This document shows, one piece after another, positions 37,061 through 38,412 of a stretch of 51,120 nt of DNA (positions are counted from its first letter, which is position 1; each line of letters starts with the position of its first letter). The translations under genes were made by a program, and so were the position numbers. This stretch comes from an uncultured Alphaproteobacteria bacterium (GTDB lineage Bacteria; Pseudomonadota; Alphaproteobacteria; RF32; CAG-239): the NCBI GenBank assembly GCA_947588655.1, contig CANPYS010000010.1, positions 1 through 51,120 of the forward strand. Direction: 5' to 3'. Under the pieces are notes generated by a model. It ran no database searches. It had not been told where the DNA came from and saw only the letters and a list, made by a program, of their open reading frames with translations.

Positions 37061-37089
37061 TTGAGTATCACTTAAAAATGTGATATATT
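37061..37089 (+). promoter_or_regulatory. Promoter of the hairpin-rich orphan gene
   Basis: TTGAGT (37061-37066), 17-base spacer, TATATT (37084-37089). The bases that follow (CGTTAAAG, ATTATG, ATTATTATAAAA) resemble the leader of the WG-repeat genes. Confidence 0.55.
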
Positions 37090-37131
37090 TAAACCGTTAA
37101 AGAAAGTATTATGGGGATTATTATAAAATAG

Positions 37132-37307
37132 AACCGCTATTTTGTTGCGGTTGTGTTTTGTTTATGTTTCCATGCTTTTTTTACAAGCCCACGCTTGAGG
37201 TATTTATACCGTTGGGAAATATAAACGCTAAGAAGTTTAACAAGCGAAACTTTAAAGCACCTTGCAGAAAAAATATCAAAACATAATCAGACTATTCATT
37301 TGATATT
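37132..37307 (+). promoter_or_regulatory. Multi-hairpin RNA leader
   Basis: Perfect or near-perfect helices in order: AACCGC/GCGGTT (37132-37152); a 12-pair helix 37160-37171 with 37215-37226 (one G-U) enclosing two small hairpins CAAGC[CCAC]GCTTG (37184-37197) and GGTAT[TT]ATACC (37199-37210), a three-way junction; AAGTTT/AAACTT (37233-37252); AATATCAAA/TTTGATATT (37272-37307). The arrangement looks like a folded regulatory RNA but matches no class I know. Confidence 0.5.
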
Positions 37308-37433
37308 GGTTTATTGGGCATGTTGCAATTAGCCCCATTGTTGAAGTATAGTAGATAATGACTTAAAACTAAACCAATCCCTCAAGTTGAAACCTGAAGC
37401 CGTTTTGAAAAATATTTTGTAAGGAACATAAAC

Positions 37434-38375
37434 TTGTTGTTTATGGAAAATACAAAAAACAGCAACAAAAATTTTGAAGCCATTAACGCTATGCGCGAGA
37501 GCATAAAGGCGTTTAAATGTAATCCTTTTGACTCCCGCACGGGTAGCCATAGCTACTCCTGCTGGACGACGGGGCGGGATTATTATATCCTCATCGGCGA
37601 AAAGGAATTCTTCTTCCGCTACCGTTGTTATAACGGCGACGGTAAAGAATGGTTCCTTGATTTTGAGAATCCTCGGAAAGAGGATTTCACAGAATCAGTA
37701 GCCGTCGGCTACTTGCCAGACCTTATCATGAAGAAACTTTTTGAGTCTTTATTCCCGGAAGGGAGCGAAGACGAAAAAATTGTTTTTTTTAATGGTCTGG
37801 CAGAAGGCCTTCCCCTCATTGAGGAGAAGCATTGGCTTAAAGAGCACTGCCTTTGGGGAAGTGAAGACCTAACCCAAAGCGTCCTTAATGAAATTGGACG
37901 CTGGGACCGGGAAGAGCCTCGGTTTACAGCGGGACAATATCGTCTATTCAAAGGCGATGATGTCTATGAGATCAAGTCCTGGGTAAATGCGGGACGTGAT
38001 GGTATACAATACCATCACAGCCTTGAAAAGGTGGATCTCGCTGCCGAGCTTGAGGCTCAAAAAGCTTTCGGGCGAAGAGCCAGAAGGCTTGCCAATGCCG
38101 CCGGCGTTCCTTTCAAGATTGCCGCATTGGTGGAAGAAAATATTGAGGACACTAAAGCCTTAGAGGCTTTAGTGTTCATCAAAAAAATTCGCGCCAATGC
38201 CGACAAGATTGATCGGCCGACGCGCCACGAGCTCATCAATTGCGGCATTGAGCGTCGCCAAAACGCGATATGTCGTGTTCTCGGGGACGAATATGCGGCT
38301 ATGTTTCGCATATTCGGCCAAATAAAGTCCAGACGTTTGGCGGACTTTATCGCCGGTCTTGATGTGCGGTTCTAG
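37434..38375 (+). CDS. Hypothetical protein, 313 residues, encoded by a hairpin-saturated gene
   Basis: Not recognised. There is no signal peptide or membrane segment. The N-terminal half is mixed alpha/beta with aromatic and Gly turns (GRDYYILIGEKEFFFRYRCY). The C-terminal half (from about residue 200) is helical and basic (FGRRARRLANAAG, KIRANADKIDRP, IERRQNAICRVLGDEY). The start is uncertain: TTG at 37434 lies eight bases after AAGGA, while ATG at 37443 is 17 bases away. The start region itself can pair (TTGTTG at 37434-37439 with CAACAA at 37463-37468). The coding sequence holds many perfect inverted repeats, up to 11 pairs. It is a single-gene unit with a strong terminator. Confidence 0.7.
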   Translation: MLFMENTKNSNKNFEAINAMRESIKAFKCNPFDSRTGSHSYSCWTTGRDYYILIGEKEFFFRYRCYNGDGKEWFLDFENPRKEDFTESVAVGYLPDLIMKKLFESLFPEGSEDEKIVFFNGLAEGLPLIEEKHWLKEHCLWGSEDLTQSVLNEIGRWDREEPRFTAGQYRLFKGDDVYEIKSWVNAGRDGIQYHHSLEKVDLAAELEAQKAFGRRARRLANAAGVPFKIAALVEENIEDTKALEALVFIKKIRANADKIDRPTRHELINCGIERRQNAICRVLGDEYAAMFRIFGQIKSRRLADFIAGLDVRF

Positions 38376-38383
38376 ATAAGAAA

Positions 38384-38412
38384 GAGGGGTGAGATTTTTC
38401 TCGCCCCTTTTT
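38384..38412. terminator. Bidirectional terminator
   Basis: GAGGGGTGAG (38384-38393) pairs with CTCGCCCCTT (38400-38409), with a T-G pair, followed by Ts. It serves the orphan gene and the convergent small membrane protein gene. Confidence 0.85.

Follow-up and report, generated by a model that had tools for sequence, protein, structure and literature searches.

The window analyzed here is a 51,120-nucleotide stretch of DNA from an uncultured Alphaproteobacteria bacterium (contig CANPYS010000010.1), within which an orphan gene of 933 bp (37443..38375, forward strand; 310 amino acids) is flanked by gyrA and a 131-amino-acid open reading frame (ORF), with mutL next, and runs in the orientation opposite to these neighbours. 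A consensus scan places a putative promoter upstream of the gene (TTGAGT, 17 nt, and TATATT, with TG ahead of the second hexamer; 37061..37089, forward strand), which is weak by itself since the scan returned 4 promoter-like sites versus 2.8 expected; boxes resembling TGTGNTATAYT lie at the same position in four homologous loci (L002, L004, L007, and L021). With its start set by this promoter, the 5' leader RNA would span ~347 nt (37096..37442, forward strand), and its core is homologous in 24 genomes. Beyond the stop codon, a terminator-like hairpin (GGGGTGAGA / TCTCGCCCC) and a T-rich tail behind it can be read from the sequence (38383..38412, forward strand); the hairpin is absent from the list produced by a scan for a narrower terminator pattern. 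Together, the orphan gene and its leader would form a stand-alone transcription unit of ~1.3 kb. In the related genome L165, mutL, a homologue of the 131-amino-acid ORF, and gyrA follow one another in close succession and the orphan unit is absent, so the unit was either inserted at this site or lost in L165.

The first-pass annotation of this DNA could not recognise the 310-amino-acid protein, an assessment borne out by the absence of any significant match in Pfam, PHROGs, PADLOC, NCBIfam, or the PDB. Profile searches recover relatives in 31 of 152 genomes from the same bacterial family, some of them incomplete, and none outside that family in a sample of 385 genomes of the class; four relatives occur in records of uncultured Alphaproteobacteria or proteobacterium MAGs, and the genus-mate G001 has no homologue. 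By these comparisons the protein represents a new, lineage-restricted family. A phage, plasmid, or viral origin was considered and rejected, as no relatives were found among phages, plasmids, or viral contigs. The C-terminal domain (residues 198-310, 113 residues; 38034..38372, forward strand) is predicted to be all-helical (AlphaFold pLDDT 94), contains the motif HELxxCGIxRR along with conserved Arg and Lys, and has as its best structural matches a Foldseek hit with an E-value of 1.8 and a VIA hit with a Z-score of 3.2, neither of which amounts to a clear fold match. A dsRNA-binding fold, guessed from an alpha-beta-beta-beta-alpha order of elements, is absent from the Foldseek and VIA lists. 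More distant members of the family (L038-L052; 272-354 amino acids) were also identified, and many of these have long terminator-like hairpins (10-22 bp) directly after the stop codon.

A conserved leader RNA and the genes behind it

The first-pass annotation also described the leader as structured, with a long helix enclosing two hairpins, and both parts of that description stand: the leader folds with a z-score of -5.6 relative to dinucleotide shuffles, and a helix with two enclosed hairpins covaries across 19 distinct sequences. This three-helix core (37305-37378, forward strand) is common to the leaders of the orphan gene, L003-L005, and L007. Helix P1 (AUUGGUUUA, 37305..37313, paired with UAAACCAAU, 37370..37378) has double-sided changes in 7 of its 9 pairs and closes two hairpins, h1 and h2. 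Hairpin h1 (GGGC...GCCC, 37316..37335) is mostly invariant, with 96% of cells paired, while h2 (CAUUGUU / GAUAAUG, 37336..37360) has double-sided changes in 5 of 7 pairs and presents a conserved loop, GAAGNAYAGUA (37343-37353). Over the whole core, double-sided changes are seen in 13 of 20 pairs, a count reached in none of 500 shuffles, and 96% of cells are paired, as compared with 27-45% when the partners are slid along the alignment. Because the sequences were aligned by fitting to the model, the alignment leans towards structure; in the starting set, however, double changes in P1 and h2 can also be recognised by eye. The leader has no match reaching the gathering cut-off in Rfam 15, and a known RNA family was rejected on this basis. 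The core is almost certainly a genuine conserved RNA.

A covariance model of the core, built partly from the window itself and used to find leader-bearing genes outside the 310-amino-acid family, identifies 25 sites, spread over 24 genomes of the 152 from these related, gut-type bacteria, with E-values (which are rough) down to 1e-25. At most sites the core ends ~53 nt before the AUG. A second leader class (L016-L020) follows the same plan with other sequences and shares the conserved h2 loop. Weaker matches to this second class occur in L162 and L163 (E 1e-7 and 4e-6), with no evident family member downstream, and the leaders of two homologues of the 310-amino-acid protein (L002:1230-1350 and L006:2500-2570) have another conserved stretch in common, GATGTTCGGTCACCG...TTAAGCTGT...CGCCCC, which is perhaps a third leader class.

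At most sites, the core is followed by a gene unrelated to the orphan gene, and at least three protein families are represented. The second of these consists of homologues of NrN (E 3e-31 and 1e-29; 9.7e-30 over 198 residues) in which the DHH motif VVDHHNE is kept. The third resembles SAM-AMP lyase, although the match is weak and covers part of the fold only (profile E 1.3e-5, with the motif WGCP..GE aligned). In L143, L147, L148, and L155, a lyase-like gene and an NrN-like gene stand in tandem behind a single leader. NrN and SAM-AMP lyase, two enzymes with no relationship to each other, both break down the CRISPR messenger SAM-AMP and support SAM-AMP signalling immunity (PMC10600005, PMC12255297), the former belonging to the SAM-AMP phosphodiesterase family of type III-B CRISPR (PDB 9lq9) and the latter to the PII superfamily (PMC12255297; PDB 9gad, 9lqd). 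While the NrN-like cargo aligns with its CRISPR-associated counterpart over ~200 residues, it is encoded alone or behind a lyase-like gene, under the new leader, and in genomes without Cmr2: a search restricted to Cmr2-type Cas10 (TIGR02577) found none in 19 leader- or cargo-bearing genomes, which leaves any link to CRISPR conjectural. The lyase-like cargo differs from known lyases in length (~200 versus 125-131 amino acids), and lyases align with two distinct regions of its profile, raising the possibility that the protein is a duplicated unit. NrN-like proteins are found in 23 of 128 genomes of the bacterial family, with the leader present or absent. In L142 (1280-1370, reverse strand), yet another, short ORF stands behind the core and encodes a zinc-ribbon-like sequence (MATWDEATNRTCATCG...CPEC).

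Complementarity between the leader loop and early codons

The loop of h1 contains the sequence GUUGC (37322..37326, forward strand), the exact complement of a GCAAC that begins 19 nt after the A of the start codon (37462..37466, forward strand; within codons for N-S-N). The loop motif is found in 17 of the 18 listed sites, and in the remaining site (L155) the stretch available begins 3' of its position. GCAAC is present in all 18 leader-bearing coding sequences versus none of 24 leaderless homologues of the 310-amino-acid family, and occurs at that position in 0.3% of genes in the genome as background. The spacing of the motif pair is nearly fixed: at most sites 71-73 nt separate GCAAC from the core, and GCAAC stands at +19, or a few nucleotides more where an extra upstream AUG is taken. 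Cargo proteins of different families start with a similar Asn-Ser-Asn, and the residues encoded at GCAAC include N-S-N, N-G-N, and S-C-N, with L142 carrying the motif in another reading frame; it is therefore the base sequence, rather than the protein, that is conserved at this position.

Leaders of the second class have a different, ACGUU-like loop, and here too the first part of the coding sequence contains a complement to it. In a comparison of five second-class leaders, some of them closely related and with loops chosen by hand, the complementarity score is 15.8 within the class, versus 11.2-11.6 across classes and 11.5 with shuffled coding sequences, a result that is suggestive and forms the principal evidence for leader-codon pairing. 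Within the main class, complementarity to a gene's own loop equals that to a swapped loop, and pairing is not proved there because the GUUGC/GCAAC pair is constant. Complementarity extended beyond the five bases likewise does not distinguish own from swapped loops. Alternatively, GCAAC could enhance translation or be bound by a protein.

Folding of the coding sequence

The saturation of the orphan gene with hairpins, as claimed in the first-pass annotation, is genuine. Perfect stems, defined as at least 7 bp with a loop of 3-15 and scored by script in 37443-38375, are located at 37668-37686 (7 bp), 37697-37713 (7 bp), 37851-37879 (7 bp, loop 15), 37878-37902 (7 bp), 37996-38018 (10 bp), 38149-38175 (12 bp), 38288-38316 (10 bp), and 38322-38350 (9 bp). 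The original list needs amendment in places, as the stem at 37697-37713 had been counted as 8 pairs and that at 38149-38175 as 11, and the 7 pairs described at 38262-38279 do not make a perfect 7-mer. These eight stems compare with a mean of 1.09 (maximum 5) in 1000 synonymous-codon shuffles, and the four of at least 9 bp with a mean of 0.056 (maximum 2). Stem density in the orphan gene (8.6/kb) is the highest among 45 ORFs in the window, the runner-up having 4.8/kb, and ranks first among ORFs of at least 450 bp in a 977-ORF scan of most contigs of the genome (~1.2 Mb; mean 1.23/kb). Measured as folding excess over codon shuffles, the gene ranks second of 965 in its own genome, and its minimum free energy has z-scores of -10.3 on the sense and -8.6 on the antisense strand. 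The gene lies at the 3rd percentile of codon adaptation and has a high GC content at third positions, from which we infer that the codons look as if chosen for pairing.

The excess extends to homologues and to cargo genes. Homologues in L003-L006 equal the orphan gene in their richness in stems, with the stems at other places, and folding excess is negative in all 30 family members tested, with a mean of about -6 kcal/mol per 100 nt versus -1.5 in 28 control genes and -1.2 in 965 genes. All 18 leader-associated coding sequences that were folded also have excess structure; together with the presence of one leader before different genes, this supports the coding-plus-structure element raised as an option in the first-pass annotation. 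When the base pairs of one homologue are projected onto another, nearly all comparisons are at chance level, the exceptions being L006 onto L004 and, weakly, L007 onto the orphan gene; on this ground, the idea that the coding region holds one fixed RNA architecture is rejected. RNAalifold z-scores of -4 to -7 on codon alignments were discounted because each sequence is over-structured by itself. The general excess, combined with pair projection at chance, indicates that the coding region keeps a degree of folding and not one architecture. Conservation of pairing among homologues, which had been put forward as a check on the hairpins, is thus found for their density and mostly not for the individual pairs. 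The orphan gene is a clean case of a coding sequence folded far beyond chance with no particular fold conserved.

A proposed model of leader-to-codon control and its alternatives

The presence of a conserved, covarying RNA ahead of different genes supports the earlier suggestion of control by the leader, and the reading we favour, at a probability of roughly 0.55, is that a new cis-acting RNA controls translation by pairing of its leader loop with early codons. The GUUGC of the h1 loop would pair with GCAAC just past the start codon, shutting the ribosome-binding region and the AUG inside a long-range pseudoknot, and a signal, which could be a small molecule, a protein, or an RNA, would bind the core, probably at the conserved h2 loop, and toggle the start region between open and closed states. 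The element also stands before genes for unrelated proteins, NrN-like and SAM-AMP-lyase-like ones among them. The hairpin-dense coding sequence is a further feature of these transcripts and would reflect selection for a compact mRNA of no set architecture that is slowly translated or protected from RNases. Pseudoknot expression platforms are known from riboswitches and other cis-regulatory RNAs of 5' leaders, including the preQ1 and SAM-II types. The element described here is similar in being a covarying RNA that precedes several unrelated genes, with a loop that could pair near the translation start, and differs in having no Rfam counterpart and in the location of the proposed partner inside the coding sequence. 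With these features and the possible codon pairing, the leader may represent a new regulatory class.

The match of two unrelated cargo families to SAM-AMP degraders, and their tandem arrangement behind one leader in four loci, bring up the idea that the core acts as a riboswitch sensing SAM-AMP or some nucleotide related to it, a compound that NrN, the lyase, and the 310-amino-acid protein would all handle. We consider this unlikely, given the lack of Cmr2/Cas10 in the genomes searched, the weakness of the lyase match, the predicted status of the cargo-enzyme substrates, and the 310-amino-acid protein, which matches such enzymes in neither sequence nor fold. The full version, in which a new riboswitch class senses SAM-AMP or a related immune messenger via loop-early-codon pairing and controls unrelated messenger-erasing enzymes (the 310-amino-acid family included), is more doubtful still. 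Since two cargo families resemble enzymes that destroy SAM-AMP, the ligand of the leader is directly testable.

Other explanations address the hairpins in the coding sequence. Template switching, which perfects imperfect inverted repeats and was among the origins first suggested, would fit stems that are perfect, short-looped, and not common to distant homologues. However, 27 of 30 homologues and all 18 leader-bearing coding sequences have the stronger folding excess on the sense strand, which is what a contribution of G-U pairs would predict; many weaker family members have the excess yet few perfect stems; and the neighbouring gyrA and mutL lack it, confining the phenomenon to one gene class. 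A mutational signature of this kind is accordingly disfavoured and has a low probability. Abundant mRNAs tend towards more folding, and an excess is also seen in ribosomal protein genes of this genome (about -2 to -6 kcal/mol per 100 nt), so that the coding structure could be an ordinary consequence of very high expression; the value for the orphan gene, however, is roughly double that of the most strongly folded ribosomal gene, and across 965 genes codon adaptation does not correlate with folding excess. This improbable explanation was set aside on the low codon adaptation of the orphan gene. Finally, the hairpin-rich transcript may be a platform bound by its own protein, for autoregulation or in an RNA-protein particle, as coding structure without conserved pairs and the conserved Arg and Lys of the C-terminal domain would allow. 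Transcripts with this leader and a structured coding sequence also encode unrelated proteins, including NrN-like ones, and no RNA-binding fold was found by Foldseek or VIA, which makes such a platform improbable.

Some RNA viruses have ordered RNA structure on the scale of the genome. The orphan gene is comparable in that folding excess runs throughout the coding RNA and individual pairs are not conserved, and different in being a gene of chromosomal DNA with no viral relative found. Raised coding structure is also observed elsewhere in the same genome. A two-gene unit at the end of contig C6 (L081:18012-18851, reverse strand, and L117:1800-2361 / L081:18874-19950, reverse strand) encodes a secreted lipoprotein-like protein and a 272-amino-acid barrel-like protein, with folding excesses of -9.3 and -17.4 per 100 nt; the barrel gene has low codon adaptation, and the unit has an A+T-rich leader without the new core. 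Five orphan genes (L080:9568-10155, L089:13535-14290, L097:18550-19152, L099:887-1372, and L107:6579-7034) are mostly alike in having raised coding structure, no evident Shine-Dalgarno sequence, a TTGACA promoter, and a short, A+T-rich leader that ends in TTATG or ATTATG.
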